A stretch of DNA of 64,000 nt from an uncultured Oscillospiraceae bacterium (GTDB lineage: Bacteria; Bacillota; Clostridia; Oscillospirales; Oscillospiraceae), in NCBI GenBank assembly GCA_934591845.1, contig CAKTPO010000002.1, positions 138,147 to 202,146 on the forward strand, in the 5' to 3' direction. The translations under genes were made by a program, and so were the position numbers. Shown one piece after another: positions 4,506 through 47,968 of the stretch. The notes under the pieces were generated by a model that was given only the letters and a program-made list of their open reading frames with translations, was not told the origin of the DNA and ran no database searches. The first letter of the stretch is position 1, and each line of letters starts with the position of its first letter.

Positions 4506-4511
4506 CCCTGT

Positions 4512-4542: not shown

Positions 4543-4562
4543 CACGAGGAGCGAAGAACGAA

Positions 4563-5207
4563 ATGGAACGTGATGTTAAGGTTTCTAAGGCGGTTTTGAA
4601 ACGGCTTCCGGGGTATCTTGCTTATCTGAAAAGTCTGCCGGATACGGCACCCGCCAATATTTCCGCCACTGCCTTGGCCAACGCTCTGGATATGGGCGAG
4701 GTTCAGGTCCGAAAGGATCTGGCCATTGTATCCGACGGTGGCCGTCCCAAGGTGGGCTATCAAAGAGAAGCACTCATTGATGACATCGAGCAGTTTCTGG
4801 GCTATGACAACTCCACAGATGCGGTGCTGATTGGTGCCGGTAAACTGGGCCTTGCATTGATGGCCTATTCCGGGTTTGAGGCCTACGGCCTGAATATCCA
4901 GGCTGCCTTTGATGTGAAGCCTCCCATGGAAAAAACAGAGGACGGTCAGCCTATTTATCCCATTTCCAAATTGGAGCATTACTGCAAGCTTCACAAGGTC
5001 TTAATGGGAATCATTACGGTTCCAGCCAGTGCGGCCCAGGAAGTGGCAGACCAGCTGATCGCCGGAGGGGTCAAGGCAATTTGGAACTTTGCCCCCACCC
5101 ATCTGGATGTGCCACCCAATATTCTGGTGCAGAATGAGAATATGGCAACTTCTTTGGCGGTTCTGTCCGTACATCTGCGTGCGGCTATGAAGGACGAAAA
5201 AAAGTGA
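4563..5207 (+). CDS. rex: Redox-sensing transcriptional repressor Rex
   Basis: 214 residues, full length. Rex represses fermentation and anaerobic respiration genes and releases DNA when NADH binds. The N-terminal winged helix covers about residues 1-80 (ALDMGEVQVRKDLA is the recognition helix); the Rossmann domain follows with VLIGAGKLGLALMAY as the dinucleotide loop. ATG 4563 follows CGAGGAGC. It has its own promoter and an unusual repeated leader, and ends at a bidirectional terminator shared with glnS. Confidence 0.93.
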   Translation: MERDVKVSKAVLKRLPGYLAYLKSLPDTAPANISATALANALDMGEVQVRKDLAIVSDGGRPKVGYQREALIDDIEQFLGYDNSTDAVLIGAGKLGLALMAYSGFEAYGLNIQAAFDVKPPMEKTEDGQPIYPISKLEHYCKLHKVLMGIITVPASAAQEVADQLIAGGVKAIWNFAPTHLDVPPNILVQNENMATSLAVLSVHLRAAMKDEKK

Positions 5208-5225
5208 CCCAAGCAGAAAGCATAT

Positions 5226-5266
5226 AAAAAGGACCTGAGCGGATCAACTCTGCTCAGGTCCTTTTT
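5226..5266. terminator. Bidirectional terminator between rex and glnS
   Basis: Arms AAAAAGGACCTGAGC and GCTCAGGTCCTTTTT form a perfect 15-base stem with a T-run on both strands, serving the two convergent genes. Confidence 0.92.
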
Positions 5267-5282
5267 GAAGTTCACGGTTTGA

Positions 5283-7913: not shown

Positions 7914-8468
7914 ATGAGCGTAGATTTCAGTGAATTTTCCAGAAAAATGGACCGGACCCTGGAGCATTTGGGGGAGGACTTTGATGCCGTTCGAGCCGGA
8001 CGTGCCAACCCGAAGGTTCTGGACCGCATCAGCGTAGAATACTATGGCAGTGAGACCCCTCTGAATGGTGTTGCCACCATTTCCTCTCCGGATGCCAGAA
8101 CCCTGGTGATCACCCCCTGGGATACCAAAATGCTCAAAGAGATACAGAAGGCTATTCAGGTCTCTGATCTGGGTATCAACCCCCAGAATGACGGCCGGGT
8201 CATCCGTCTGGTGTTCCCCCAGCTGACGGAGGAACGCCGTAAAGATCTGTCCAAGCAGGTCAAACGCTATGCTGAGGACGCAAAGGTCGCCATGCGGAAT
8301 ATTCGCCGGGATGGCATGGACTACGTGAAGAAGCTGAAAAAGAACAGCGAGATCACAGAGGATGACCAGAAGAAGGCAGAGAAGGATCTGCAGGATATGC
8401 TGGATAAGTATATCAAGAAGGTCGATGCCGCTCTGGCTGCCAAGGACAAGGAACTGATGTCCATTTGA
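7914..8468 (+). CDS. frr: Ribosome recycling factor
   Basis: 184 residues, full length. With EF-G it splits post-termination ribosomes. Family signatures include the N-terminal helix of the three-helix bundle, the AGRANP motif, and PLTEERRKDL with a long charged C-terminal helix. AAAGGAGG precedes the ATG. A 119-base spacer before uppS carries two GC-rich inverted repeats (around 8478-8507 and 8521-8541) without T-runs. Confidence 0.96.
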   Translation: MSVDFSEFSRKMDRTLEHLGEDFDAVRAGRANPKVLDRISVEYYGSETPLNGVATISSPDARTLVITPWDTKMLKEIQKAIQVSDLGINPQNDGRVIRLVFPQLTEERRKDLSKQVKRYAEDAKVAMRNIRRDGMDYVKKLKKNSEITEDDQKKAEKDLQDMLDKYIKKVDAALAAKDKELMSI

Positions 8469-8587
8469 TTTATCAGCCGCGGGCCGGTCCTTTGGCACCG
8501 GCTCGCGGAAAACAATACTACGGGGCTTTTAGAAGGCTCCCCAAAATTGAACGGACCTTACGGATCCGGTGAGAAAGAGGTGCTTGC

Positions 8588-9307
8588 ATGGCGCTCGAGA
8601 ATGAAAATCTTCCGAAACCGCCTCGGCATATTGCAATCATTATGGACGGCAACGGCCGGTGGGCAAAGAAACGTGGGCTGCCCCGTACCGCAGGTCACAG
8701 CGCCGGTGCGGAGGCTTTTCGGAGAATTGCCAATTATTGCCGCAGCCTGGGCGTGGAATACCTGACGGTCTATGCCTTTTCTACAGAGAACTGGAAACGG
8801 TCTCAGGAGGAGGTAGGAGGCATTATGCTGCTGCTCCGGAAGTATTTGGAGGAGGCCCTGCTGGACATGGAGAAAAACAGGGTTCGTTTTCGCTTCTTCG
8901 GAGATTTGTCCCGCCTGTCCCCACAGCTGCAAAAACTGTGTCGGGATGCGGAAAACCGTTCTGTAGAGTATGATGTTCAGGTGAATTTCTGCCTGAATTA
9001 TGGCGGCAGGGATGAAATCGTCCGGGCTGCCCAGGCCTTTGCCGCGGAGGTTGCCGCAGGGAAGCGCCAGCCCCAGGAGCTGACGGAGGGTCTTTTTGAT
9101 TCCTATCTGTATTCAGCCGGTGTGCCGGATCCAGAACTCATTATCCGGCCCTCGGGGGAGATGCGTACCAGCAACTTCCTGCTGTGGCAGTCCGCTTATT
9201 CAGAGTACGTATTCATGGATGTTCTGTGGCCGGATTTTGGACCTCAGGACCTGGATAAGGCCATTGCGGAGTATCACCGGCGCAACCGCCGCTTTGGAGG
9301 CGTCTGA
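8588..9307 (+). CDS. uppS: Isoprenyl (undecaprenyl) diphosphate synthase
   Basis: 239 residues. This cis-prenyltransferase makes the C55 lipid carrier of peptidoglycan and other wall polymers. Conserved segments are HIAIIMDGNGRWAKKRG, the catalytic Asp included (residues 14-30), YAFSTENWKR, VNFCLNYGGRDEIV and LIIRPSGEMRTSNFLLWQ. AGAGGTG precedes ATG 8588. cdsA starts 3 bases after the stop; dxr and ispG in the same operon feed isoprenoid precursors to this enzyme. Confidence 0.95.
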   Translation: MALENENLPKPPRHIAIIMDGNGRWAKKRGLPRTAGHSAGAEAFRRIANYCRSLGVEYLTVYAFSTENWKRSQEEVGGIMLLLRKYLEEALLDMEKNRVRFRFFGDLSRLSPQLQKLCRDAENRSVEYDVQVNFCLNYGGRDEIVRAAQAFAAEVAAGKRQPQELTEGLFDSYLYSAGVPDPELIIRPSGEMRTSNFLLWQSAYSEYVFMDVLWPDFGPQDLDKAIAEYHRRNRRFGGV

Positions 9308-9310
9308 CCC

Positions 9311-10123
9311 ATGAAAATGAGAATTATTACAGCGGCAATTGCCATACCGGTGTTGCTGCTGATCCTTTTACTTGCCCCGGAGATCGTGCCGACGCTGCTG
9401 CTGGGGGTGCTGATGGCGATTGCCGCCTATGAGTTCCTCTATCGCACGGGCCTGTGCCGCCGGACCCGCATGGTCGTCTACAGCGTGCTGTGTGCTTTTG
9501 GCCTGGCCATTTGGAGCTACTACGGCGGTTTGCAGGCCTATCTTCTGCTGGGACTCATCGTATACCTGATGCTTTTATTTTCAGAAGTCATGCTGGACCA
9601 TGTAAAAGTTCCTGTGGAACTGATTGGCCTTTGCACGCTGGGCGGCTTTGTGATTCCCCTGATGCTCAGCTCTATCATTCGCATTCTGATGACGACCAAC
9701 GGTCGGTTTTTTGTGCTGCTGCCCTTTGTGGTGGCGTTCCTTTCGGATGCGGGAGCCTATTTCGTGGGCCTGCGTTTTGGCAAACACAAGCTGGCACCGG
9801 TGGTAAGCCCCAATAAGACCATTGAGGGGGTTCTGGGCGGCTTCGTGTTTGCTTTGGTAGGTATGTTGGTATACGGCCTGATTTTGCAGTTGTTCCTGCA
9901 ATTCCGGGTAAACTATGGTGCAGTGGTTCTGTATGCCATTGCCGGTGCCGGTGTGGATGTTATGGGGGATCTGTGTTTCTCTGTTGTCAAGCGGCAGACC
10001 GGAATCAAGGATTACGGCAATCTGATTCCCGGTCACGGCGGTGTGCTGGACCGTTTTGATTCTATGGTCCTGGTAGCACCTCTCATGGAAGCGCTGCTTC
10101 TGATTCTTCCTTTGGCGGTGTAG
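9311..10123 (+). CDS. cdsA: Phosphatidate cytidylyltransferase
   Basis: 270 residues with about eight membrane segments. It forms CDP-diacylglycerol from CTP and phosphatidate, the branch point of phospholipid synthesis. The C-terminal signature is present in altered order as SDAGAYFVGLRFGKHKL, SPNKTIEGVLGG, GDLCFSVVKRQTGIKDYGNLIPGHGGVLDRFDS. It sits between uppS and dxr, the standard order in this operon. Confidence 0.95.
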   Translation: MKMRIITAAIAIPVLLLILLLAPEIVPTLLLGVLMAIAAYEFLYRTGLCRRTRMVVYSVLCAFGLAIWSYYGGLQAYLLLGLIVYLMLLFSEVMLDHVKVPVELIGLCTLGGFVIPLMLSSIIRILMTTNGRFFVLLPFVVAFLSDAGAYFVGLRFGKHKLAPVVSPNKTIEGVLGGFVFALVGMLVYGLILQLFLQFRVNYGAVVLYAIAGAGVDVMGDLCFSVVKRQTGIKDYGNLIPGHGGVLDRFDSMVLVAPLMEALLLILPLAV

Positions 10124-16300: not shown

Positions 16301-17693
16301 GTCCAAGGCCCACGCCTATTGCGTGGAAATGTTTGGAAAATCCCATGTGTTCCGGGCTGGTACCATTGGAACCGTTGCGGAAAAGACCGCCTTTGGCTAT
16401 GTAAAAAAATATCTTGCCGAACGGGGCATGTCTGCAAACCGGGCAGAGGAAAACAGACTTGCGGCAGGCTGCGTCGGTGTCCGGCGCACTACAGGCCAGC
16501 ACCCCGGCGGTCTGGTGGTTATTCCCCAGGAAAACGAGATTTGGGATTTCTGCCCCGTACAGCACCCGGCGGATGACCCCAATGCCGACCAGATCACCAC
16601 CCACTTTGAATACCACTCCATGGAGGAAAACCTCTTAAAACTGGACATGCTGGGCCACGATGACCCCACCATGATCCGTATGATGGAAGACATGACTGGC
16701 GTGGATGCCAAAACCATTCCGCTGGATGATAAGAAAACCATGTCCATTTTCACGTCCTCCAAAGTCCTGGGCTACGAAAATGACAAGATCCTGGGACCCA
16801 CCGGGGCGGTGGCCATTCCGGAGTTCAACACCAAGTTCACCCGTGGCATGCTGATGGACACCATGCCGGAACGGTTTGATACCCTGCTGCGCCTGTCCGG
16901 CTTCTCCCACGGCACGGATGTGTGGCTGGGCAACGCCAAGGATTTGATTACCTCCAAAACGGCCACGGTTGACCAGGCCATCGGCTGCCGTGACGACATT
17001 ATGCTCTACCTCATCTCCTGCGGGATGCCGGAGAAGCGCTCCTTCAAAATCATGGAGGCGGTGCGAAAGGGCAGAGGTCTGCCCGAGGGGGCGGAGCAGG
17101 AGATGATCGACGCGGGAGTGCCGGATTGGTACATTGGTTCCTGTAAGAAAATCAAATACCTGTTCCCCAAAGCCCACGCAGTTGCCTATGTTATGATGGC
17201 TTTCCGAATCGCCTGGTTCAAGGTGTATCACCCGCTGGCTTTCTACGCGGCTTATTTTTACAGACGAAGCCAGAAAGGCGGCTTTGATGCGGTGCTGATG
17301 ACCCAGGGTATGGAGTCCATCATGGCCAATATGGATGCCATTGAAACCAACGAAAACGCCACCGATAAGGACGAGGACCTGCTGACAACCATGGAAGTCG
17401 TCTATGAATACTATCTTCGGGGCTTTACATTCCTGCCCATCGATGTGTATAAGAGCCACGCAACGAAGTTTCTGATCATCGATGGGAAGATTTTACCGCC
17501 TTTCGTTGCCATTTCCGGACTGGGCGAAAATGCCGCCTGGGATTTGATGCGGGGCAGGGAAGGGAAGACCTTTCTGTCCATCGAGGAGGTTGCCGCCGCC
17601 TGCCCGAAGGTATCCAAAACCCACATCCAGATGCTTAAAGATGCCGGAGCCTTTGGTTCTCTGCCGGATACCAGCCAGATCAGCCTGTTCTAG
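13392..17693 (+). CDS. polC: DNA polymerase III subunit alpha, PolC type
   Basis: 1433 residues, the normal length of Gram-positive PolC, the main replicative polymerase. Domains in order are an N-terminal domain, an OB fold (about 200-310), a PHP domain beginning HLHTTMSNMDALTD (about 320), a DnaQ-type exonuclease inserted in PHP (VAFDLETTG, about 415-585), a zinc-binding stretch (CPNPECK ... CPKCG, about 900-935), the palm with PDIDLNFSGEYQ, and C-terminal fingers. It is the last gene of the pyrH operon; no clear terminator follows before the udp promoter. Confidence 0.97.
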   Translation: MKENLFLLDMFPDYEPPEEIRKALSQAALVAVDLDPASRTVEAAAHAETYIPRRVTQQLEKELLELYGLNKLHIVITHPAQELSKMEPEELRCLFVEQDSMTRGSLAGAKWAWNGNELTISLVANGKAGIEKQIPAVVSALKARFATDVTIRVEAGHEFSDQELSQAMEKIRQKALTSIPMAQSHQPQQEAPKIQDSDTFYGKPFRGNATAMKNLNLDMGTIIVEGKVFAIEHKELTKRNAWVVKFDMTDNTNSIRVTRFLEAREAKPILENVQMGSVLRVQGKLIEDRFENDMVLKPYAMMPGAMPKRKDTVPDGKRVELHLHTTMSNMDALTDTAAAVKQAAAWGHRAIAITDHGVAQSFPDAMKAASKAKVAGTDENIKVLYGVEGYYVNDVDDRIVVHGDQDIPFDGEYVAFDLETTGLSAQNDRIIEIGAVVMKNGQELDRFQTFVDPQRILDKKIIELTGITDDMLVGAPQIQEVLPKFLEFVGDRVLVAHNSDFDTGFIRAACGRMDIPYHFTAADTLILSQNMLPQLNKFKLDIVSNALSLPDFQHHRAADDAVTCGLIMHRLMEQMTQDLGIHRLQEINARMTTLRAKGRITDRHARHIIILAKNQVGLRNLYHLISDSNLKYFKRVPRIPKSELMELREGLIIGSACEAGELFQAMLDGKSEDELKRIASFYDYLEIQPLANNMFMLTKGMAKDVEQLKEYNRTIVRLGESLGKMVVATGDVHFLNPEDEIFRHILLATKGFDDADKPNPLYFRSTDNMLEEFSYLGEEKAYEVVVTNPNLIADMCETLRPVPHNLFAPKIENSVEDLKSLVYGKLHRLYGENPPELITKRVETELHDIISCHYDVIYMSAQKLVQNSLEHGYLVGSRGSVGSSIVAYMSGITEVNSFPPHYRCPNPECKFTTFDVPKGYGCGADLPDAVCPKCGAKFEKDGFNIPFETFLGFGGDKVPDIDLNFSGEYQSKAHAYCVEMFGKSHVFRAGTIGTVAEKTAFGYVKKYLAERGMSANRAEENRLAAGCVGVRRTTGQHPGGLVVIPQENEIWDFCPVQHPADDPNADQITTHFEYHSMEENLLKLDMLGHDDPTMIRMMEDMTGVDAKTIPLDDKKTMSIFTSSKVLGYENDKILGPTGAVAIPEFNTKFTRGMLMDTMPERFDTLLRLSGFSHGTDVWLGNAKDLITSKTATVDQAIGCRDDIMLYLISCGMPEKRSFKIMEAVRKGRGLPEGAEQEMIDAGVPDWYIGSCKKIKYLFPKAHAVAYVMMAFRIAWFKVYHPLAFYAAYFYRRSQKGGFDAVLMTQGMESIMANMDAIETNENATDKDEDLLTTMEVVYEYYLRGFTFLPIDVYKSHATKFLIIDGKILPPFVAISGLGENAAWDLMRGREGKTFLSIEEVAAACPKVSKTHIQMLKDAGAFGSLPDTSQISLF

Positions 17694-17705
17694 AATGAAA
17701 ACATC

Positions 17706-17734
17706 TTGCATTATCCGGCGGCCTGTGCTATAAT
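17706..17734 (+). promoter_or_regulatory. Promoter of the nucleoside phosphorylase gene
   Basis: TTGCAT (17706-17711), a 17-base spacer and TATAAT (17729-17734) lie just after polC. They rule out the ATG at 17706 as the start of the next gene. Confidence 0.75.
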
Positions 17735-17765
17735 TTTTGTACAAATTCCACAAAGGAGGACGATT

Positions 17766-18533
17766 ATGCAGAAAACCGAGAAGCAGTTTCACATTCACTG
17801 TGAAGAAGGTGATGTGGGCCGCTATGTGTTCCTGCCCGGTGACCCGGGCCGGTGTGAGGCCATTGCGTCTTATTTTGATAACCCTGTCCATATCGGCATG
17901 AACCGGGAGTATAACGTCTATACCGGCACCATTTTAGGGGAGAAGGTCTCCGTCTGCTCTACGGGCATCGGCGGCCCCTCCGCCGCCATCGCCATGGAGG
18001 AGTTGGCCAACATCGGCGCGGACACCTTCCTGCGGGTGGGCACCTGCGGCGGCATCGCCCTGGATGTGTGCCCCGGGGATATTGTGGTGGCCAGCGGTGC
18101 CATCCGCTATGAGCACACCTCCCTGGAGTATGCCCCTATCGAGTACCCCAGCGTGCCGGATTTTGACGTGACCCTGGCCCTGCGGGAGGCAAGCCGGGAG
18201 CTGGGCTACAGCACCCATGTGGGCATTGTCCAGTGCAAGGACGCGTTCTACGGCCAGCACAGCCCGGAAAAGAGTCCTGTTTCCTACGAGCTGCTGCAAA
18301 AATGGGAAAGCTGGAAGCGCCTCGGTGTCAAAGCCAGTGAAATGGAGTCTGCGGCACTGTTTGTAGTAGCCGCCGCCAGAGGGGTCCGCTGCGGCAGCTG
18401 CTTCCACGTGATCTGGAACCAGGAGCGGGAAAAGGCCGGGATGTTTATGCCCATGACCGAGGATACCTCCGGGGCTATCCGGGTGGGGATTGAAGCGGTC
18501 AAGAGGCTGATTCTGGCAGACCGGAAGAAATAA
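17766..18533 (+). CDS. udp: Nucleoside phosphorylase, uridine phosphorylase type
   Basis: 255 residues from ATG 17766 behind AAAGGAGGA. It splits a nucleoside with phosphate into base and ribose 1-phosphate. NP-I family features are LPGDPGRCE near the N-terminus, the phosphate/ribose loop [24 protein letters not shown] and the ribose-binding [11 protein letters not shown]. The pattern fits uridine phosphorylase better than DeoD, but substrate cannot be fixed from sequence alone. It has its own promoter and a GC-rich hairpin after the stop. Confidence 0.8.
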
Positions 18534-18540
18534 AAATGAG

Positions 18541-18569
18541 CCGGACACTGCGGCTTCGGCGGTGTCCGG
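18541..18569 (+). terminator. Hairpin after the nucleoside phosphorylase gene
   Basis: Arms CCGGACAC and GTGTCCGG with a GC-rich inner part follow the stop closely. The T-tract is poor (GTTCGTTGTTT), so termination may be partial. Confidence 0.5.
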
Positions 18570-18594
18570 CAGTGTTCGTTGTTTGGAAAGAGAA

Positions 18595-20352
18595 GTGAAC
18601 AGTTTGGAAAAAATCGGAAGTCTCTTGATCCTTGGGGTGTGGCTGCTGTTTCTGCTTCTGCAAAACCTTGGATATTGGGAAGTTTTGCAAAGAAAATGTA
18701 ATGTAGAAATTGAATTCTTGCCGGCCTTGACCTGCGCAGTTCAGATTTCGGTGCTATTCTTTGCGGGAATTCTGAACCTTTTGTTGGAGGCGGCAGTCTG
18801 TCTTTGGCTGTTTGGCCTTCTGTCCCTTGGCTACTGTGTCAAACAGAACCGTGGCCTGTCCTTTGCAAAGCGTTATTGCAATGCAGGCTATTTGTGCCTG
18901 TTCCTGTTCCTTGCGGCCCTTGTTCTCCACTTACACGGTGCAACATTTTCAGCTGGGGATGACTTTACGCATTGGGGTTTGGTTGCTAAATCTGTTTTGA
19001 CTACAGACCATATGCCAACCATGCGGGAGGCATATATTGAATATCCGGATTATCCTTTGGGAAGTGCTGTGTTTATTTATTATTGCATGCGTTTTTCCGG
19101 TGCCGTTACCAGTGAGTGGCAGATGATGCTCTGCCAGGCTTATCTGGCACTTGCATTCCTGTTACCGATGATGCTCCCTCTCAAAAAGCATCGGGGCGTT
19201 GGGTTTGTAGTGGCAGTTTTGCTGACAGAATTCTTCCTGAAGTACAATATTCGACCCAGTTCCCTGCAAGTTGATACGTTGCTGCCACTGGCAGGCATGG
19301 CGATGCTATTATATGTGTTCCGATATTGTGCTGCTGGGGAAACCGGAAAGCCCAGTTTCTATCTGGCCAGTGCCTTCATTATGGCGGTTTCTCAAATAAA
19401 AAGCGCAGGAGCCTTTTTTGTTGCCATCGCCCTGGGCTATGTTATGCTGGAAGGGAAAAAGGACCGCCAATGGAAGCAGCGGGTCATCGTGGTTTTGGTG
19501 CAGCTTATTGTCTACCTGCTTTGGATGAAACACAGGGATTATGTTTTTGGCTATGCAGGCCGCCATGGTGTCAGCATCAAAGAGTTTTCACGTGTTCTGG
19601 CGATTCACGATAAATCAGAATTACCTGTTTTGATTCGCTCTTTTGTTTTGCGTTTGGCATCTTTTAAGGGAAATATTCTGTGCCTTTGCGCAGCTGCTGT
19701 GGTTAGAATTCTGTATTGTACGGCAGGTGAGCGCAAACAGGCATCGGATTTTCTAAAACTTTGCGGAAAGGTTTTGTTAGCCTATCTTGCGTATATGGCA
19801 GCGCTGTGTGTCATGTACTATACCTCCATGGAAGTTCCGGGATACGAGACCAGCTTGCCTGGCTTTGACAGATATGCGCAGACTGCTGTGATTGCAGTGC
19901 TTTATGGCTTTGGTGTACTGCTGATGCAGCGAATCAGCGAATATCAGTTCCGGCGGGAAAAGTGTGCCGTGGCAGCATTGCTGGTGCTGCTTCCGGGACT
20001 GCTGTGGTGGCAGGGCATCCGGAAACCGTTCTTGCTGGAAACACCTCCTGTCAGTGCAGACCGGGTGAAAATTGAAAATGCCATGCGTTATAAGTACATT
20101 AAAGAAGGCACCTCCTGTGCGATTCTTGGTGTCGAGGAAGAAAACCTTGGCCCGAGATATATTGCAAAGTATCTCTTTAACAACTGGGATCGGGAGAATT
20201 TTACCATTAACAGCATGGAAGATTTCCGGGCAGTGGAGGATTATGACCCGGACTATCTGATCATTCTTGATTTGGAGAATCCTTATATTCAGCAGTGGAT
20301 ACAGGAAAAGTATCCCGAATATGTGGGAAAGACCTTTATTGACCTGACATAA
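18595..20352 (+). CDS. Multi-pass membrane protein, possible GT-C glycosyltransferase
   Basis: About 585 residues if GTG 18595 is used; no ATG is available, and TTG 18583 or 18604 are alternatives, so the start is uncertain. At least ten hydrophobic segments are followed by a soluble tail of about 120 residues. Soon after the third or fourth segment comes AGDDFTHWGLVAK, an acidic pair plus His/Trp in an outer loop, as in GT-C enzymes that use lipid-linked sugars. I do not recognise a named family. It stands alone between a weak hairpin and a strong terminator. A wall or surface glycan role is an inference. Confidence 0.5.
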   Translation: MNSLEKIGSLLILGVWLLFLLLQNLGYWEVLQRKCNVEIEFLPALTCAVQISVLFFAGILNLLLEAAVCLWLFGLLSLGYCVKQNRGLSFAKRYCNAGYLCLFLFLAALVLHLHGATFSAGDDFTHWGLVAKSVLTTDHMPTMREAYIEYPDYPLGSAVFIYYCMRFSGAVTSEWQMMLCQAYLALAFLLPMMLPLKKHRGVGFVVAVLLTEFFLKYNIRPSSLQVDTLLPLAGMAMLLYVFRYCAAGETGKPSFYLASAFIMAVSQIKSAGAFFVAIALGYVMLEGKKDRQWKQRVIVVLVQLIVYLLWMKHRDYVFGYAGRHGVSIKEFSRVLAIHDKSELPVLIRSFVLRLASFKGNILCLCAAAVVRILYCTAGERKQASDFLKLCGKVLLAYLAYMAALCVMYYTSMEVPGYETSLPGFDRYAQTAVIAVLYGFGVLLMQRISEYQFRREKCAVAALLVLLPGLLWWQGIRKPFLLETPPVSADRVKIENAMRYKYIKEGTSCAILGVEEENLGPRYIAKYLFNNWDRENFTINSMEDFRAVEDYDPDYLIILDLENPYIQQWIQEKYPEYVGKTFIDLT

Positions 20353-39285: not shown

Positions 39286-41340
39286 CTATTTCATTTCAAA
39301 TTCTGCAATGGGTTTCATCTCAATTTTCATCCTAGGGTATACCGCAATAGCAGCGTTGTATTCATCCACGGTAAGCCATTCTTCGTAGCTGGGCTTGCCA
39401 ATTTCCGAAATGTATCTGTACCAGGGGTTGTTGGGATTTGCAAAGGTGTCATAGCAGATACAGTCGATTTCAACCGCTTTGTGGCTTTCAATACGATAAT
39501 AGGTATGGCTTTCAAAGGTATCTAATGTACAAACCTTTTCGATGATATTCCCCTCACAGAGGTACAGACCGTTCAGCGTACTATCCGATAGCACAAGATC
39601 AATCATACCGTCAACCAGCATCACGACTTCTCCGAAAGGTGTATCACCAGCGCCCAGAAGAAGCTCCGGTTCCCCATCCCCGTTCAAATCATGCAGCGCA
39701 TAACGAATGCTCTCTGGGGCAGTGGAATTATCAATGTAATATTTCAGATAATTTTCGATACTGTCCTGGATAAACGGATGGCCAATTGATGCAAGGTATT
39801 CTTTGATTGGGGTTGTTTTCACTTCTATCTTTTGGTAGGACGAAAGAACGGCATGGAATTCTTCACGGCTGATTGGCTGATCCACAAGGTTCTGATCCTC
39901 GGGAGCAAAGGATGCGGACAATTTACCGTCGGCGTTTTTCCTGCATATCCGCATCCATGGTCTATCCGTATTTTCCGGATTGTATCTTACCCAATCCTGA
40001 TATTCGATGCTGGTGCCAACGACTCTGGCATAACGATAGTCCTGCCCGTTGAGACCATCATCCACAAACATGAGGATACCGTTCTGGCAGACATAGACCT
40101 TCGTATTCTCAATCCACCAGACCAGACTTTTGGACTGAGTGCCATCCAGTGTACAGACACTGTAGAAATAATCCTCCTGTCCCAACAACAATTCTTCTAC
40201 ACCGTTCCCGTCAATATCCAGCAGAGCATAGACTGCGTTAATGGAATCATAACCCTGCTCTGCTACCTGGATAATGCGTTCTTTGTAGCCGAAGTTTTCA
40301 AGTACCTTTGCTCGTTCTTCGCGCTCCTGTGCCAAACGCTCACTCAGCGCATCATACCGTGCCTGAGCTGCTTCAACATCCACCTCCTGCGGATCAACCT
40401 TAAAATCGATGACCTCGGCAACGGCTTCCATACCCTTGCGAGTCAGAATTTGTTCGCCCTCTGCGATATCTCCTGCTCGGACATTGTTTATCAGAACCGT
40501 GAGGAAGGCATCCTTCTGATCCACAATCATCAAAGCATTGTCCTTACTGAGCGCCATCAGAACATCTACTCCCTGCGCTGTGGTGTATGTCCATTCCTCA
40601 TAGTTTTCTAACGGTCCAATAAAGGCACTGACACCATCAAAAGATGTTTTCATAACATAACGCATCCGCATATCCAGTGGGTACTTCCATTGACAATCTT
40701 CACCGGTGAGCGTCAAATCAAAGGGAATGTCGAAAGTACCATCACCGTAGTAATAGCCTTGATTGTAATGTACCTTTGCCGGTGCGTGTGGTACAAGCAA
40801 GCCACCAATGCCTAGTGCATCAAAAGTGGTTTTGATATCTTCCTCGATCCACCCAATCCCCAGTGTGTTCAATCCGTATTTCTCGCAGATTTCGTCAACC
40901 TTGTCAATTTCTTCCTGAAAGAAACAGCCATATGCCAAATAATCCAGACGATCCTTCATTGGAATTTCCGGCTCATTTATCGGCATTTGATAGGCTTCCC
41001 GAGATTTATTCCATTCCTGATTGGCCAAATAGCCAGGGGTTCCGACATAGCCTTGCAGGGAAATCGCATTTCTTATCTGAGCGAGTTGTGTTTTCTCTCC
41101 GGGAGCTGCTGGAGGTGTGTATTCCTCTTGCGTGATAATCATATCACGCAGGCCAAAGACATAGATAACAGCGCAGCCAACCAACAGTAGCATCATGGCA
41201 ATAACTGCGGCAACTAACAATGTGCGGCTAAAGGAAAGTCGTTTTTGCGATTTCTTCTTTCCGTTTCGGCTGTCCAGAGCGGAGAGAACGTAAGGTTCCT
41301 TTGCTTCGCCAATAACTTCCAGTAATTGATCTGACTTCAT
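39286..41340 (-). CDS. Membrane partner of ECF sigma factor, probable anti-sigma sensor
   Basis: 684 residues. A 38-residue cytoplasmic N-terminus (MKSDQLLEVIGEAKEP) precedes one membrane segment (about 40-63), then a large outer part. Two calcium-loop-like repeats appear, DIDGNGVEELLLG (about 375) and DLNGDGEPELLLG (about 551), each followed by a similar module ending ...KPI/TPI. Its start overlaps the sigma gene (ATGA), the standard layout for a sigma and its anti-sigma. No zinc-binding HxxxCxxC motif was seen, so the anti-sigma role is inferred from arrangement. Confidence 0.65.
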   Translation of the reverse strand: MKSDQLLEVIGEAKEPYVLSALDSRNGKKKSQKRLSFSRTLLVAAVIAMMLLLVGCAVIYVFGLRDMIITQEEYTPPAAPGEKTQLAQIRNAISLQGYVGTPGYLANQEWNKSREAYQMPINEPEIPMKDRLDYLAYGCFFQEEIDKVDEICEKYGLNTLGIGWIEEDIKTTFDALGIGGLLVPHAPAKVHYNQGYYYGDGTFDIPFDLTLTGEDCQWKYPLDMRMRYVMKTSFDGVSAFIGPLENYEEWTYTTAQGVDVLMALSKDNALMIVDQKDAFLTVLINNVRAGDIAEGEQILTRKGMEAVAEVIDFKVDPQEVDVEAAQARYDALSERLAQEREERAKVLENFGYKERIIQVAEQGYDSINAVYALLDIDGNGVEELLLGQEDYFYSVCTLDGTQSKSLVWWIENTKVYVCQNGILMFVDDGLNGQDYRYARVVGTSIEYQDWVRYNPENTDRPWMRICRKNADGKLSASFAPEDQNLVDQPISREEFHAVLSSYQKIEVKTTPIKEYLASIGHPFIQDSIENYLKYYIDNSTAPESIRYALHDLNGDGEPELLLGAGDTPFGEVVMLVDGMIDLVLSDSTLNGLYLCEGNIIEKVCTLDTFESHTYYRIESHKAVEIDCICYDTFANPNNPWYRYISEIGKPSYEEWLTVDEYNAAIAVYPRMKIEMKPIAEFEMK

Positions 41341-41894
41341 AGAAAGCTCTCCTTTTCAAGCTGCTTCCGGAGTTTACCTCTTGTCCGGTACAGCATGGAT
41401 GTGACCTTACTCTGGGTAAAACCATAGCTTTCCGCAATGACCGCAATGGGATCAAAGAACCAATATCTGCGCAAAAAGATGTCCCGTTCGGCTTTGGGCA
41501 AAGAATCCAGGAACCGGTTCAGGCACGCAGATAGTTCCCTGGCATCAGAGCTTGCCTCAAGATCCTGCGTTCCGTCAACGCAGCTGTCCAGTTCTTCCAG
41601 AGCAAGGGTGATTTGCCCGCCGCCGCGCTTTGCGGTGTTTTTCGCTTTCCAGCGGTTAATGGAGATACGGCGGGTGATTTTTCCAAGGAATGTTGCAAGA
41701 ATCGCAGGACGATGGGGTGGAAGCTGGTTCCACGCAGCCATATATGTATCGCTGACACTTTCCTCGGCATCTTCGTTGTTTGCCAGGGCATGATAAGCAA
41801 TGCTGTAGCAATAGGCACCATATTTGCGGTCTGTTTCGGCAATGGCCTGCTCCGAGCGGTCCCAGTAAAGCGCAACGATGCTTTGATCGTCCAT
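41337..41894 (-). CDS. ECF-type RNA polymerase sigma factor
   Basis: 185 residues from ATG 41894, which has AAGGAGGTG upstream; a longer frame begins without one. Region 2 (YSIAYHALANNEDAEESVSDTYMAAWNQLP) and region 4 (LPKAERDIFLRRYWFFDPIAVIAESYGFTQSKVTSMLYRTR, given here only as landmarks across residues 140-180) are complete. It is co-transcribed with the membrane partner and presumably controls an envelope response. The linker between regions is about 60 residues, as in other clostridial ECF factors. Confidence 0.9.
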   Translation of the reverse strand: MDDQSIVALYWDRSEQAIAETDRKYGAYCYSIAYHALANNEDAEESVSDTYMAAWNQLPPHRPAILATFLGKITRRISINRWKAKNTAKRGGGQITLALEELDSCVDGTQDLEASSDARELSACLNRFLDSLPKAERDIFLRRYWFFDPIAVIAESYGFTQSKVTSMLYRTRGKLRKQLEKESFL

Positions 41895-42001
41895 ATAAAC
41901 ACCTCCTTTGATTTTCGTTGAAAGGCCCTTCACTTATATACTCAGGAAAAACTCTCTGATATTGCATGATTATTTGTCAAAAGTTTTGCAAATACGAAAG
42001 T

Positions 42002-43810
42002 TTATGGCTTCACCATCCAGAAAGTTGGTGCTCGTCTCATATTCGCCATACCAGTAGGCAGCTGATTCAGTGTTTGAACAGCTCCTTTTTCGCCATACCG
42101 TCCCTCTGTATCCCGGTATAGCATATTGCAGGTAGAACCGTGGTTTATAGCACAGGCGTTTACTGCTTTGTACTCTGTCATGATGTGGATCAGATCAGCG
42201 TAGGTCGCTCCAAGAGACTGGGGTGTTCTTCCGTCCGCACTGATGAAAATCACCGTTCCGTCTTCACGCTGGCCAATGGCCGTCCGGGATGTGTAACCGG
42301 AAAGAGTGTCGTATACGGACAGATTTGGTTTGCCATTGATCATCAGAACGGGACCGCCCTCATAGCCATCCCGGATTTCTAGATCAGCTGCCTCCTCCGC
42401 GGTGATGGAATTACCAACGATCAAAATATTGTCTTTATTGAAGCCCATGAATCCATCTTCGTAAATGTGGTCATGAAGACTGTTCCACACAACATGCTCG
42501 TTGGACAAAACCAATCCGCAAGGGACACTTCCTACGGCAAGACTGCTTGTTCCGTCATCGTAGAATACGCCGGCGTTGACTGCCGCAATTGCGTTTTCCT
42601 GCTCTATTGCTTTATCAATGCCAATTCCCGGTGTGTCCTGGGAGAGGAAATCAGAAGACGTTGCCAGGTAGACCTTTGAAGGATCACGAACCAGCATCAC
42701 ATGGGCGGTAAAGGTTTGTCCGGTGTAAGTGTCAATTTGAATACCATCCGGGAAAGCTGCCCACGCATCATTCAGGTTTTCTTCCTCCGTGGATATTGTG
42801 GGTGCTGTGGTCGGCTGCGTTGGTGCTGTAGGCGTTGTGGTGCTGGGCGCATCCTGAACAGGCTCGGATTTTTGAAAATCCGGGGCTGCTTGCTTTTTGG
42901 GAACAGTCAAAAATCCAATTGCCGTTGCCAATATAGCAACAACCGAAACAAGAACGACCCAGAAGCGGGGCTTCTTGTAATTCAGAATATTGCGCACCCG
43001 CTGGACAACTGCCGTTTCTCCAAAAGCCACGGGACAGGCCAGCACCAGCCGCTTTCCACCGCTGCAATCCAAAAGTGCTGCGGAATAGGCTTTCTTTTCA
43101 ACCAGGCCAAAGTGAGAGACGACCATTTCGTCACAGGCAAACTCAATATCCCGGCATACAAGAAAGTAGGCGATCCATACAAAGGGGTCAAACCAATAAA
43201 CAGATAAAAGGATGAACGCCAGGGGTTTCCACCAGTGATCTTTTCTGGATAGATGGCTCCGCTCGTGGGCAATCACATGGGCCTTGGCCGGCCCACACAG
43301 GCCGGAGGGCAGGTAAATTCTGGGCCGAATAAAACCGAGAATAAACGGGGTCGTTACAGCATCGCAAATCCAGATGTCGTCCGTTTCCGGAATGGCTTCC
43401 ATTACAAGGTGCCGCATTCTGATGTAACTGAATAGAAAATAGCTCAGCATGAGGCAAAGACCAATGCACCACACAATCGGTAACACCGAGACCTGAGGCT
43501 GGCTGCTTTCAGTTATGGCTTTTTGGTTTTCCGGAATCTGCGCTTGGGTTGCACCGGAGGGAACAGGTTCCGGATGAATCAGGTTCGTATTGACGGTTTC
43601 CTGAATGACAGAAGTAGTCTGCGGGACCATGCTGACGGGGCTTTCAATGGAGAACGGAAAGACCAACCGCAAAGCAACGACGGCCCAGAGCATACAGACG
43701 ATCCGCCTTGGTGCCTTTCTCAAAAGTATACGAAGAAAGATCACTGCAACGATCAGCCAATTTGCCAGAAGGCTAAGACTGACGAGTTTCGCAAATACGG
43801 TTTCCATCAT
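42002..43810 (-). CDS. BlaR1-type M56 metalloprotease fused to a phosphodiester glycosidase-like domain
   Basis: 602 residues (601 from the second ATG at 43807). The N-terminal part is a membrane M56 protease with HERSH (182-186), the third-ligand region CRDIEFACDE (219-228) and about four membrane helices, the last at 284-303. After a Thr/Pro-rich linker (320-340) comes a NAGPA-like domain (about 360-600): AVNAGVFYDDG, GPVLMINGKPN, TSRTAIGQREDGTVIFISAD. The usual DGGGSS motif is replaced by INHGSTCN (555-562). In BlaR1 this place is a penicillin-binding sensor. The gene overlaps its BlaI repressor by one base. Confidence 0.82.
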   Translation of the reverse strand: MMETVFAKLVSLSLLANWLIVAVIFLRILLRKAPRRIVCMLWAVVALRLVFPFSIESPVSMVPQTTSVIQETVNTNLIHPEPVPSGATQAQIPENQKAITESSQPQVSVLPIVWCIGLCLMLSYFLFSYIRMRHLVMEAIPETDDIWICDAVTTPFILGFIRPRIYLPSGLCGPAKAHVIAHERSHLSRKDHWWKPLAFILLSVYWFDPFVWIAYFLVCRDIEFACDEMVVSHFGLVEKKAYSAALLDCSGGKRLVLACPVAFGETAVVQRVRNILNYKKPRFWVVLVSVVAILATAIGFLTVPKKQAAPDFQKSEPVQDAPSTTTPTAPTQPTTAPTISTEEENLNDAWAAFPDGIQIDTYTGQTFTAHVMLVRDPSKVYLATSSDFLSQDTPGIGIDKAIEQENAIAAVNAGVFYDDGTSSLAVGSVPCGLVLSNEHVVWNSLHDHIYEDGFMGFNKDNILIVGNSITAEEAADLEIRDGYEGGPVLMINGKPNLSVYDTLSGYTSRTAIGQREDGTVIFISADGRTPQSLGATYADLIHIMTEYKAVNACAINHGSTCNMLYRDTEGRYGEKGAVQTLNQLPTGMANMRRAPTFWMVKP

Positions 43811-44172
43811 TACTCCTCCCCTGCTTCATCGATCATCTTCCGGACCAGCATCCGTTCTTCATCCGACAAGGGGCGGCTTCTGGAAAATGCCGCCAGAAAT
43901 GCCGGGAAAGAGCCTTGAAATGCGGTGTCCACGAATTGCTCACTCTGCATGGAATAAAACTGTTCCCTGGAAATAAGGGATGTGACCGTTCCGTTGTTGT
44001 TCTGAAACAGTCCCTTGTCGCAAAGCCTACGAAGGACGGTATGCACCGTTGTCCGTTTCCATTGTAGCTCCTCCCCTGCCAGTTTTACAAGGGTGGAAGA
44101 AGATACCGGTTCGTTCTTCCAAATCATATCCGCAAAGCGGGATTCTACTACACCGAGCTGTATTTCATTCAT
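43810..44172 (-). CDS. BlaI/MecI-family repressor (first copy)
   Basis: 120 residues. A winged helix (residues 1-75: LGVVESRFADMIWKNEPVSS, WKRTTVHTVLRRLCDKGLF) precedes a C-terminal dimerisation helix pair (FPAFLAAFSRSRPLSDEE). BlaI dimers bind operators until cut by their BlaR1 protease. AAAGGAGG precedes ATG 44172. Two operators lie in its promoter region, indicating autoregulation, and the BlaR1-glycosidase gene follows in the same transcript. Confidence 0.92.
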   Translation of the reverse strand: MNEIQLGVVESRFADMIWKNEPVSSSTLVKLAGEELQWKRTTVHTVLRRLCDKGLFQNNNGTVTSLISREQFYSMQSEQFVDTAFQGSFPAFLAAFSRSRPLSDEERMLVRKMIDEAGEE

Positions 44173-44194: not shown

Positions 44195-44238
44195 GACTAC
44201 ATAACGTAGTCTATACTTAAAGACTACACTATGTAGTC
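44195..44238. promoter_or_regulatory. Paired BlaI-type operators of the first locus
   Basis: Two 17-base palindromes, GACTAC-N5-GTAGTC at 44195-44211 and 44222-44238, 27 bases centre to centre. The sequence around them (TTGGG ... CCCAA) makes the whole block symmetric. A minus-strand TTGACT-N17-TAGTCT overlaps the upstream copy. Confidence 0.82.
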
Positions 44239-44368
44239 CCAAAAGTCAAGACTTTTTTTCAAAACCGTTTCTAAAAGGGGCTGCATAAGAATTTGCCAGG
44301 AAAACATAGCGTTTTCCTGGCAAATTCAAGAACCCTTTGGCGGTTTTGTGGTTCTATTGGCAGCACAT

Positions 44369-46141
44369 TTATTGAACACTGCACCCAAGAATGGCCCTGC
44401 ATTTATCCAGATTGGGAATCAGAACCTTGTGGGGACGGCCAAGTAGGTCAATTTCCGTTTCTTCTGAGGAGGTTCTATCGGGGCATTGGGCAACTGTGAC
44501 CCGATAGGAGGAGTGCCCATTGAGCCATTGTTCCCGATAGTCTTCCAATTGGGAGTTTTCTAAATCTGTTTCCAAAAGAGGAAGAACAGCCTCCAGCAAT
44601 TGGGAAAATTGCTCCCCAGAAAGCTTCCGACAGGCATCTAAAACCGTGGAAATTACCGTGGCATTCCTCTCTGAACGGCGGTACAGGCTTTCGTCCGGAA
44701 GAAAAAGATACCGATAAGCGAATGCAGCCTTACCGTTTAAGTGATATGTTCCCTCCGAATGATTATCCAGTGAAATTTGTTTCTCGGACAGGCAGCCTAT
44801 TTCATCGTCTTCCAGTGGCAGATCAATACCGCCAAGGGCATCAACAATGCCAATGAATACATCTGGACTTAGTTCCACGCTTCCATCAATAGATATGCCA
44901 AGATTCTCTGTAATGCCTTTGCTCAAAAACGGCCCGCCATGATCTTCATCATTCCAGGCACGTCCCAAAGCGTGGGCAATATTCAAAGTTGTTTGTCCAA
45001 CGGCATGAACTGTTTTAGAATCGGAATAGTTACCGAATTCCATATATGTCCAGGCAGGAAATACATAAAAATTCCATGTCTTGGTATTTGAATCTATAGA
45101 CGTCAAAACTATAGAACCTGCGTTTTTGATCTCAGTGCCATCCTTTAGCACAGTAGTATATTGACCAATGACAAGCAATCCAGGGCTTTTCGGTGCAGCA
45201 TGGACAGGAGCAGTCAAAAAGCCAACGCCAATTGCCGCAATGACGAGAATGCTCAGAGCTGTGTGCCATGCTGTTGGCCGTTTATAGCGGACAATGCTGG
45301 TAATGCGGTGCTTCACGTTCTTCTCTCCGAAAGCCAACGGTGCGGCTATCGCAGTTTTCTGGCCGCTGTAGCGCAAAAGGACCCTGGAATAAACCATCTT
45401 TTGCGAAACGGTCATATTCCGAATGACCGCTTCATCACAGGCAACCTCAATATCACGGCAAAAAACAAAATAGGCAACCCATATCATAGGGTGAAACCAA
45501 TACAGCGACAACAGAAAGAAACCCAATGGCTTCCACAGATAGTCCTTCCGCCTCAGATGCGCTTGTTCGTGGGCAAGGATAAAGGGCAATTCCTCTAGCT
45601 TCAGGCAGGATGGAAGATATATATTGGGCTTGAGCAGACCGAAAACAAAAGGTTCCTCAATGTAATCACAGGAATAGAGCCTGGGACCGACAGCCAAGGA
45701 AGCGGACAGTCTTCTTTTTGTAGCGATGCTCCACCCAACAGCATAAACGGACATTCCGGCAAATCCAACGAGCCATACAAAAGAAAGCATACCAAGCATA
45801 TCAAAGGCAACCTCGGAAGAAGTCTGCGGCTCTAGTCTCAGATTTTGCAGCAATGCTAAATCAGGCACAAGAGCGGTTTCGACTCTCTCAGGGGATAATC
45901 GAGCGGATGTTTCCGGAGTCGGATAAAAGGTCTCCTGTTCGATAGGAGCTGATGTTGGAAGAACACAAAGAGGACTTTCGATGCTGACTGGGGCAATCAG
46001 GCGAACCGCTAGGAGGACCCACAGGAAGCAGGAGACCGTTCTGGATTTTCGTGAAAGAAACAGGTGCGCGAGCAAAATCACCGGCAGCAGCCAGGCGGCG
46101 GAGATGCTGTTGTTCAGTAGCCATAAAAACAGTTCTTTCAT
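44369..46141 (-). CDS. BlaR1-type M56 metalloprotease fused to a degenerate LCP domain
   Basis: 590 residues. The M56 part has HEQAH (191-195) and CRDIEVACDE (228-237), with a last membrane helix at 294-310. Residues 320-530 align with LCP (LytR-CpsA-Psr) ligases: LLVIGQ, IVLTSID, FIGIVDALGGIDLP, GTYHLNGKAAFAYRY. Compared with the intact LCP protein encoded next door, the catalytic positions are changed: GQD to GQY, NADT to NAGS, LRDTY to PAWTY, GATKL to GQTTL. The fold is kept while the active site is lost, which suggests a binding sensor. It is divergent from a second blaI. Confidence 0.85.
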   Translation of the reverse strand: MKELFLWLLNNSISAAWLLPVILLAHLFLSRKSRTVSCFLWVLLAVRLIAPVSIESPLCVLPTSAPIEQETFYPTPETSARLSPERVETALVPDLALLQNLRLEPQTSSEVAFDMLGMLSFVWLVGFAGMSVYAVGWSIATKRRLSASLAVGPRLYSCDYIEEPFVFGLLKPNIYLPSCLKLEELPFILAHEQAHLRRKDYLWKPLGFFLLSLYWFHPMIWVAYFVFCRDIEVACDEAVIRNMTVSQKMVYSRVLLRYSGQKTAIAAPLAFGEKNVKHRITSIVRYKRPTAWHTALSILVIAAIGVGFLTAPVHAAPKSPGLLVIGQYTTVLKDGTEIKNAGSIVLTSIDSNTKTWNFYVFPAWTYMEFGNYSDSKTVHAVGQTTLNIAHALGRAWNDEDHGGPFLSKGITENLGISIDGSVELSPDVFIGIVDALGGIDLPLEDDEIGCLSEKQISLDNHSEGTYHLNGKAAFAYRYLFLPDESLYRRSERNATVISTVLDACRKLSGEQFSQLLEAVLPLLETDLENSQLEDYREQWLNGHSSYRVTVAQCPDRTSSEETEIDLLGRPHKVLIPNLDKCRAILGCSVQ

Positions 46142-46388
46142 AATGATCCTCTCTCATAATTATCGATTGTTTTACGGAGTTGCTCCGACAACCTTTTGCA
46201 AATGCAGTTCTAAAGCGAAAAATGTTATAATGACAAGCAATGAACTGTAGCCAGAGTTTTGTTGTATATAAGCTGCTCATTCTCAGTTTATAACAGATGA
46301 ACACAACTGTCAAGAAGTTTTTGTAGAGCATTCAGGGATGCTAAATATCCTGAGTTTTTCTAAATATACATTTCGTTTCTGAATAATC

Positions 46389-46417
46389 TTGACAAATCTG
46401 TCTATTGAATATAGAAT
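46389..46417 (+). promoter_or_regulatory. Promoter of the second blaI and LCP gene
   Basis: TTGACA (46389-46394), a 17-base spacer and TAGAAT (46412-46417). The 315-base gap to the divergent BlaR1-LCP gene holds no gene. Confidence 0.7.
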
Positions 46418-46440
46418 ATAATAGTCTATACAAAGTAGAC
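46400..46440. promoter_or_regulatory. Paired BlaI-type operators of the second locus
   Basis: Two inverted repeats, TCTAT-N5-ATAGA inside 46400-46416 and GTCTA-N7-TAGAC at 46424-46440, 24 bases apart, cover the spacer, -10 and start of the blaI promoter. The half-site GTCTA differs from GACTA at the first locus. Confidence 0.72.
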
Positions 46441-46456
46441 GAAAGGAGCAATAAAA

Positions 46457-46816
46457 ATGGATGAATATCGTCTTGGAGAAGTGGAATCAAGATTTGCGGA
46501 AATCATCTGGTCGAATGAACCTCTTTCTTCCAGGCATCTGGCGGACCTGGCCTTTGAGCAACTAAACTGGAAGCGCACAACGACCTATACTGTTTTGAAA
46601 CGACTGTGTGAGCGCGGACTATTTCAAAATCAGGGCGGCACTGTATCCGCTTTGGTCACTCGGGAGGAGTTTTTGGCCCATCGGAGCGAACAATTTCTGG
46701 ACGAAGCCTTTCAGGGGTCGCTTCCTGCTTTTATGGCGGCATTCAGCAGCCGAAAAAAGCTCTCCGAAACGGAAATCAAGGAGCTGGAGCAGATCATTGA
46801 CGGAATGCGGGAATAA
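46457..46816 (+). CDS. BlaI/MecI-family repressor (second copy)
   Basis: 119 residues, clearly paralogous to the repressor at 43.8-44.2 kb (LGEVESRFAEIIWSNEPLSS, WKRTTTYTVLKRLCERGLFQ). GAAAGGAGC precedes the ATG. The recognition helix region differs slightly (TTTYTVLKRL against TTVHTVLRRL), consistent with the different operator half-sites. The LCP gene follows 15 bases later and is probably under its control; the matching sensor protease is the divergent BlaR1-LCP protein. Confidence 0.92.
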   Translation: MDEYRLGEVESRFAEIIWSNEPLSSRHLADLAFEQLNWKRTTTYTVLKRLCERGLFQNQGGTVSALVTREEFLAHRSEQFLDEAFQGSLPAFMAAFSSRKKLSETEIKELEQIIDGMRE

Positions 46817-46831
46817 AAGGAGGATAAATCA

Positions 46832-47968
46832 ATGAAAAAAAGCGGCCGATTTCTGGCACGGCAAAAATCAAAGAAATCAGTATGGATCAAGGCCTTGGCA
46901 GTGGTACTGCTTGCGGCCCTACTCCTGGGCGCAATTGGTGTCAGTTTTGCTTATTCAAAACTGAATAAAATTCAAAGGGCGCAGGTCGGTTCCAATCAAC
47001 TGACCGATGATGTGTTGGCTGGACTCTTGGCAGAAGATCCTACAGCTTCCTATATAGATGAATCTGAACCTGAATCAACGGATGTAACTATTCCAAAAGA
47101 AACAACTCCGGGCTACGGAAAAATGGGAAAAGTAATCAATGTTCTGTTAATAGGTCAAGATGCCCGCGAAGGAGAAGAAAGCAAAAATGCAGATACGGTC
47201 ATTTTAATTACGATCAACAAGGAAGCCAAGAAAATCACGATGACATCTTTCCTGCGGGACACTTACGTCTCTTTGAATGGCATCAAGGATATCGAAGGAA
47301 AGCCCCGCTACGGTGCAACAAAGCTGACTTTGGTTTATGCAGTCGGCCATCAGTATGGCGGTGATCTGGGTGCCATGTATCTGATGGACCGTGTTATTGA
47401 GAAAAATTTTGGACCGGTTGTGGACCATAATATTGAAGTAAGCATGGACGCCTTTGACACCTGCATCAATGCGCTGGGCGGGGTTACGGTCACTCTGGAT
47501 GAGGACGAAGCCAAATACATGAACAACTACTTCAAGGATTATGACGACCGTTCGTATACAGTTGGGGAGAACCTGGTAGACGGTTGGGCAGCCGAGGTTT
47601 ATGTCAGAATCCGTCACGCAAACTACGGCGACAATGATTTTAACCGGACAGACCGCCAGCGAGCTGTGGTAGCGCAGGTGTTGGAGAAAGTCAAAAATAA
47701 GAGTCTGCTGGAAATCAATAAACTGTTGGACACCTTGCTTCCTTTGGTCCTGACGGATATGACGAATGCGGACATGACCAACTACATTATGGAAATCCTG
47801 CCGCTGCTGCCGGAAATGACACTGGAATCCATTCAATGTCCCAATGAGGATATGGACCGCTGGGGTGAGGTCCGGGATATTTTCAATGATGGACAGCCAC
47901 AGAGCATTCTGAATTTCAATTCCAACAAAGCAAAGGCCATTCTGCTCCCCATTACTGAATGCGATTAA
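46832..47968 (+). CDS. LCP (LytR-CpsA-Psr) family cell-wall polymer ligase
   Basis: 378 residues. One membrane segment (about 21-44) places the enzyme outside the membrane, where LCP proteins transfer undecaprenyl-linked anionic polymers to peptidoglycan. The active-site residues look complete: LLIGQDAREG, NADTVILITI, FLRDTYVSL, GATKLTLVYA, VRIRHANYGDNDFNRTDRQR. AAAGGAGG precedes the ATG. It is downstream of the second blaI, so its level may respond to the BlaR1-LCP sensor. Confidence 0.9.
   Translation: MKKSGRFLARQKSKKSVWIKALAVVLLAALLLGAIGVSFAYSKLNKIQRAQVGSNQLTDDVLAGLLAEDPTASYIDESEPESTDVTIPKETTPGYGKMGKVINVLLIGQDAREGEESKNADTVILITINKEAKKITMTSFLRDTYVSLNGIKDIEGKPRYGATKLTLVYAVGHQYGGDLGAMYLMDRVIEKNFGPVVDHNIEVSMDAFDTCINALGGVTVTLDEDEAKYMNNYFKDYDDRSYTVGENLVDGWAAEVYVRIRHANYGDNDFNRTDRQRAVVAQVLEKVKNKSLLEINKLLDTLLPLVLTDMTNADMTNYIMEILPLLPEMTLESIQCPNEDMDRWGEVRDIFNDGQPQSILNFNSNKAKAILLPITECD

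Follow-up and report, generated by a model that had tools for sequence, protein, structure and literature searches.

The bla and mec divergons of Staphylococcus aureus, in which the membrane receptors BlaR1 and MecR1 act with the repressors BlaI and MecI, are the described systems closest to a locus found in a 64,000-nucleotide stretch of DNA (the window) from an uncultured Oscillospiraceae bacterium (GCA_934591845.1, contig CAKTPO010000002.1, positions 138,147 to 202,146). The BlaR1 sensor is related to class D beta-lactamases. Cleavage of BlaI takes place at Asn101-Phe102, and BlaR1 cuts itself at Ser283-Phe284 (PMC9834060). The window locus, comprising genes for an M56-LCP receptor, a repressor (BlaI1) and an LCP ligase, shares with these systems the membrane-bound M56 protease with its HExxH...E motif, a C-terminal outer domain, a BlaI-family repressor with the cleavage-site Phe and the divergent arrangement of genes, whereas the outer domain is of the LCP type and not penicillin-binding, and the gene adjoining the repressor gene encodes an LCP transferase, blaI1 standing with the output enzyme and not with the receptor. 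Regarding LCP proteins, the outer domain (pseudo-LCP) has the fold of the transferases TagTUV, Cps2A and LcpA, and has a tail in common with the adjoining Oscillospiraceae ligase, but 29 such domains, all fused behind a protease, lack the catalytic arginines of these enzymes. An LCP-fold protein without the four conserved arginines is known from Eubacterium siraeum (EUBSIR_01389, PDB 4obm; PMC11337229); its solved chain, of 258 residues, does not include a protease. On balance, the window locus is probably a BlaR1-like relay that runs from the pseudo-LCP domain through the M56 protease and BlaI1 to the LCP ligase and monitors lipid-linked wall glycopolymer.

A search for other M56-LCP fusions, proposed along with the original prediction for this locus, covered 5.8 billion proteins, of which 7997 candidates were scored, and returned 159 matches. 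Among the best 120 of these, 28 proteins are M56-LCP relatives of the receptor (91-100% query cover, 39-93% identity; 26 with both Pfam labels and two with the M56 label only), while the other 92, which extend over 53-76% of the query, are all without an LCP label. Varied C-terminal domains (SH3-type, FG-GAP and others) are frequent on the M56 relatives among the matches listed. No M56-LCP receptor was described among the matches listed in the literature searches, which covered titles and abstract openings of open-licence papers.

The original prediction, made from the sequence alone, held that the receptor retains its M56 protease half, carries a dead outer domain of LCP fold and is encoded divergently from BlaI and a live ligase, and the analyses bear this out. 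The protease half exceeds the cut-off of profile PF05569 (138.1 against 31 bits), and its zinc-site residues H191, E192, H195 and E232 are invariant in all 29 aligned M56-LCP proteins, which indicates that the protease has been kept. No solved relative of this half was detected by sequence at E<=0.001, BlaR1 being matched by fold only; the receptor scores 87.5 bits against NCBIfam blaR1_generic (cut-off 400), and a Pfam scan detected the LCP but not the transpeptidase domain. Ala270-Phe271 is likewise invariant (F271 in 29/29) and, judged from BlaR1-like spacing without an alignment, is a candidate site of receptor autocleavage. An Ala-x-Ala-like stretch after the last transmembrane helix (45188-45205, minus strand) resembles a signal-peptidase site and, as BlaR1 is reportedly also cut at Gly331 (PMC9834060), the ectodomain might be shed. 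The outer domain matches PF03816 above the curated cut-off, and residues 315-590 match LCP chains by predicted structure, the fold being predicted with confidence; identity to the adjoining ligase is 27%, and the receptor reaches 33.9 against TIGR00350 (cut-off 62.3). BlaI1 is a PF03965 protein encoded divergently from the receptor, with 315 base pairs (bp) between the two genes. The ligase gene lcp begins 15 bp past blaI1, and the two apparently form an operon under putative BlaI-type dyads; the ligase itself has a single N-terminal hydrophobic helix, an LCP-profile score above the cut-off (106.4 bits, cut-off 24.6) and the conserved catalytic residues.

To assess the loss of the active site, 66 standalone live LCPs served as the reference for the 29 fused domains, with ligase numbering. 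The live set is biased, as it consists of the adjoining ligase and 65 proteins that a ligase query retrieved from related genomes within a single genus; these were retained if they had at least 300 residues, matched the ligase at E<=1e-12 and were unique over their last 200 residues. Ligase R142, R261 and R272 were equated with TagT R118, R219 and R227 through alignments and published numbering, R272 being the least certain; in TagT, alanine replacement of each of the three abolishes transfer (PMC11337229), and R149 and R266 of Actinomyces oris LcpA are likewise required (PMC6381275). All three arginines are present in 66/66 live LCPs, in contrast to 0/29, 1/29 and 11/29 fused domains, respectively, and the window receptor has Ala, Phe and Arg at these positions. 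Arg at the R259 position (65/66 live) and Asp at the D143 position (65/66 live) each occur in one of the 29 fusions, and the magnesium ligand D121, found in 66/66 live proteins, is kept in 10, while R275 is retained on both sides (66/66 and 28/29). Thus, by motif, all 29 aligned fusions appear catalytically dead. The individual substitutions named in the original prediction fared unevenly. The changes of LRDTY to PAWTY and of NADT to NAGS are both real, although the second is not general, given the 10 fusions that keep the Asp. The change of GQD to GQY, also listed as a key change, is not one: that Asp occurs in only 23 of the 66 live LCPs, so the Tyr of the receptor says little, and the position was dropped as an active-site change. 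The R-x-R motif, which the prediction had not mentioned, has lost both arginines in the receptor (YVRIR in the adjoining ligase, YRYLF here).

Regarding the origin of the fused domain, it had been pictured as a decoy of the enzyme that it would induce. Read as a copy, this is not supported, since in a tree the 29 fused LCP domains form one clade with 100/100 support, apart from the 66 live LCPs and not grouping with the adjoining ligase. The idea of a recent copy of that ligase was therefore rejected, and by sequence the pseudo-LCP domain is its distant paralogue. When the LCP portion of the fusion that diverges most was used as query, only that fusion and three standalone LCPs were returned. 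Sequence change is quicker in the LCP portion than in the protease core, identities among five distant members being 28-46% and 53-62%, respectively, as might be expected of a sensing domain. The same difference in rate, together with the high variability of the former active site, would also fit a remnant that is drifting and has no part in sensing, the signal then coming from elsewhere in the M56 protein. This explanation is very improbable, because every one of the 29 proteins, even at 39% identity, has kept the domain, its fold is confidently predicted, its scaffold residues are invariant and new residues have become fixed, such as Pro362 in 27 of the 29; the sequences thus indicate a domain that is maintained and not decaying.

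The arrangement of the genes is unusual for the family. In 81 sequences (the window and 80 relative loci, the best of a genome-contig scan, chosen by likeness to the fusion), blaI lies upstream of the M56 gene, on the same strand and within 300 bp, for 83 of 87 M56 genes; of the remaining four, three have no blaI so placed and the one divergent gene is the M56-LCP receptor. The live ligase gene occupies the place behind blaI that is usually that of the receptor gene, and the gene behind blaI1 is, by position only, one for an LCP transferase and not for a beta-lactamase or PBP2a. It seems, therefore, that BlaI control of the ligase was acquired in this lineage. Among 99 further M56 extensions from these loci, some of which were counted twice, there was no match at E<=0.01 to the LCP profiles built for the analysis. 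A sensor that resembles a neighbour recurs but is uncommon, as a nearby homologue was found for five of 82 M56 C-terminal extensions of at least 80 residues: the window receptor, one each at loci L052 and L028, and two mutually matching M56 genes of locus L001. At L052, the C-terminal part of the M56 protein (828-2951) resembles a protein encoded 1.2 kilobases (kb) downstream (4179-5375; 30% identity, E 9e-34) that has no Pfam name. At L028, the extension of the M56 protein (8013-9809) shares 78% identity, over 288 residues, with a portion of a protein of 777 residues encoded 7.5 kb away (17318-19651), which contains two such matches.

Putative control elements were found on the blaI1 side. 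Phe96 of BlaI1 aligns with MecI Phe102, and this cleavage-site Phe is present in 84 of 85 BlaI proteins, both window BlaIs included. Two operator-like dyads, O1 (one mismatch) and O2 (none), lie at the blaI1 promoter-like site and are the two best matches to the dyad pattern in the window. In Clostridium thermocellum, BlaI_0696 recognizes inverted GTCTAT half-sites five nucleotides apart and BlaI_1845 a GACTAT repeat, and paired dyads occur in the regulons of both (PMC8457756, DNA affinity purification sequencing). The half-site and paired layout of O1/O2 match those of BlaI_0696, the window like C. thermocellum having two BlaIs, with GTCTAT for BlaI1 and GACTAC for BlaI2; the receptors of that organism are named BlaR1, and an LCP fusion is not mentioned in section 25 of that paper (PMC8457756). 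When 220 bp upstream of 83 BlaI genes from the relative loci and the window (two of the 83) were examined, CTA-N7-TAG was detected upstream of 42 genes at 74 sites; shuffled sequences gave 5.0 on average (12 at most), and random stretches taken from these loci gave 1.2 (5 at most). Among the 60 sites listed of the 74, the starts of paired dyads are 24-33 bp apart, and those of the blaI1 pair are 24 bp apart.

Proceeding from these features, the relay can be outlined as one in which an inactivated LCP domain would have taken the place of the penicillin sensor, and a working LCP transferase that of the beta-lactamase as output. From its architecture, the M56-LCP protein would sit in the membrane with the LCP domain outside, beside the membrane. 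On binding or losing a ligand of the LCP type, for example an undecaprenyl-linked precursor of a wall glycopolymer, the pseudo-LCP domain would change state, the signal would pass across the membrane to activate the zinc protease, and BlaI1 would be cut at Ala95-Phe96, a site proposed by analogy with the cleavage by BlaR1 of itself and of BlaI. BlaI1 would then leave the paired dyads (46400-46440), and blaI1-lcp would be transcribed until new BlaI1 restored repression. The anatomy underlying this outline (domains, protease site, lost LCP residues, gene pair, dyads and Phe) is well supported at the sequence level, while we infer that BlaI1 is the target of the receptor and, likewise, the identity of the ligand, the direction of the response and its benefit, which would be a ligase level matched to polymer supply. 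The ligand would most simply be an LCP substrate or product, that is, lipid-linked wall glycopolymer. In the original prediction, the live ligase would be induced to clear a backlog of undecaprenyl-linked polymer. A narrower form, in which a pseudo-LCP domain still recognizing LCP substrates was captured by a BlaR1-type protease as a dedicated receptor that sets the level of live ligase in dependence on lipid-linked glycopolymer, is put forward only tentatively and is clearly less probable than the relay in general.

Several observations weigh against the relay. The linkage of the M56-LCP fusion to blaI and lcp rests on one locus. The best 80 loci of the genome-contig scan match the query from residue 1-4 to residue 310-437, full-length in none. 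Searches of genomes with the fusion alignment gave a full-length match in none of sets of 8, 394 (order), 400 (family) and 42 genomes, nor in 136 genomes of the genus nearest by MutS2 of those reached or in a set of 34, and 370 genomes that apparently repeat the family set yielded one match, to positions 1-321 (genome G750); these sets overlap, their numbers are not additive, the large draws scored three candidates per genome, so that some matches may have been missed, and no fusion-bearing genome served as positive control. No match to the fusion was found in viral contigs, and 26 plasmid records had partial matches, with 80% coverage in none. Among LCP genes in stretches from 20 related genomes, a BlaI or M56 neighbour at E<=1e-4 was not found; the flanks were about 8-9 kb on each side for two genomes with ligase orthologues of 58-68% identity, and shorter at contig ends. 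As neither blaI nor an M56 gene lies within about 8 kb of these orthologues, BlaI control is not a general trait of the ligase. A looser dyad pattern (up to two mismatches) has 17 matches in the window against a shuffle mean of 11.1, a number reached by 5 of 100 shuffles and thus not clearly beyond chance, and the roles of O1/O2 and of both promoters as operators and promoters are suggested by sequence matches only. Promoter-like sites number 8 between 44100 and 48200 against 6.3 in shuffles, which is weak on its own.

A further point on this side is that the second repressor, BlaI2, encoded 196 bp downstream of the receptor gene on the same strand and sharing the Ala-Ala-Phe motif, could be the target of the receptor instead of BlaI1. 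Such cross-talk is one element of an alternative in which the receptor acts on BlaI2 or on both repressors, the ectodomain reports general wall stress and blaI1-lcp is induced in another way; the promoter-like site of the receptor gene, with no dyad close by, would fit this. We regard this alternative as unlikely, given that BlaI2 already has an M56 partner in the layout usual for the family, that the M56-LCP gene is the sole M56 partner of blaI1 and that the half-sites of the two units differ, as do those of the two C. thermocellum BlaIs; the blaI2 unit has the dyad GACTAC-N5-GTAGTC twice (44195-44238), and BlaI1 and BlaI2 may well read different operators.

The lipid-binding pocket described for LytR (PMC11337229) bears on the ligand. 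Of five positions mapped to it, three are hydrophobic in 28, 29 and 29 of the 29 fusions, while the other two are hydrophobic in 10/29 and 4/29 fusions against 57/66 and 61/66 live LCPs; two of the five, we would guess, lie near the pocket mouth. Together with this, the loss of the head-group arginines may mean that lipid-pyrophosphate binding is gone. The domain might then have become a protein-contact module that no longer binds lipid-linked polymer and has the live ligase, or some other LCP partner, as its docking site, reporting the occupancy or absence of that partner, a role with which the mostly lost pyrophosphate-site arginines and magnesium-binding Asp, the two altered pocket positions and the newly fixed residues would agree. 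The three hydrophobic positions speak against docking, as does the Cps2A R267A mutant, which still holds its ligand (PMC11337229), so that losing one arginine need not abolish binding. Docking is considered improbable; with three pocket positions hydrophobic and the arginines lost, there might still be room for a lipid tail beside a head-group site that has been remodelled.

The features of the locus are listed in Table 1. The host is probably a Faecousia-like member of the Oscillospiraceae, as the MutS2 of the window is 86% identical to one named Faecousia and 93% identical to its closest match. Between the receptor gene and blaI2 lies a perfect 17-bp inverted repeat with a loop of five nucleotides (44289-44327), perhaps a terminator. 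The ectodomain encoded next to blaI2, with its NAGPA domain, is another possible wall-glycopolymer-acting domain on an M56 protease. Genes for an extracytoplasmic function-type sigma factor and for a protein that matches FG-GAP weakly (39286-41933, minus strand) follow 68 bp past the M56-NAGPA gene on the same strand and perhaps belong to a BlaI2 operon.

Table 1. Predicted features of the M56-LCP locus, in window coordinates (aa, amino acids).
Feature	Position	Strand	Evidence or remark
M56-LCP receptor gene, 590 aa	44369..46141	-	M56 Pfam 4.4e-40 and LCP Pfam 1.5e-07
Receptor transmembrane helices and M56 zinc protease	~residues 1-312	-
Pseudo-LCP ectodomain, ~residues 318-590	44369..45190	-	PF03816, fold; catalytic Arg lost
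blaI1 repressor gene, 119 aa	46457..46816	+	PF03965 2.6e-23
LCP glycopolymer transferase gene (lcp), 378 aa	46832..47968	+	LCP profile; conserved residues present
blaI1-lcp promoter-like site TTGACA-17-TAGAAT, 11/12	46389..46417	+	Sequence match
Operator-like dyad O1 GTCTAT-N5-ATAGAA	46400..46416		Overlaps blaI1-lcp promoter-like site
Operator-like dyad O2 GTCTAT-N5-GTAGAC	46424..46440		Directly past -10-like hexamer
Receptor promoter-like site TTGACA-17-TAAACT, 10/12	46285..46313	-	Sequence match; nearest dyad ~87 bp off
blaI2	43810..44172	-
M56 protease and phosphodiester-glycosidase (NAGPA) domain gene	42002..43810	-	NAGPA 3.1e-26

BlaR1-BlaI is known as an antibiotic sensor, and in this locus the same relay is apparently wired to cell-wall polymer ligation, with a transferase that has lost its activity serving as the sensory part. 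In the narrower form put forward above, it would, with BlaR1, point to a rule that M56 receptors can arise by fusion of a dead relative of the controlled enzyme. If the relay is as outlined, it would be a concrete candidate for the means by which certain gut Firmicutes detect lipid-linked glycopolymer and tune their LCP activity, and would allow binding by LCP domains to be studied separately from catalysis. It also suggests where ligands may be sought for other M56 receptors whose ectodomains are uncharacterised.

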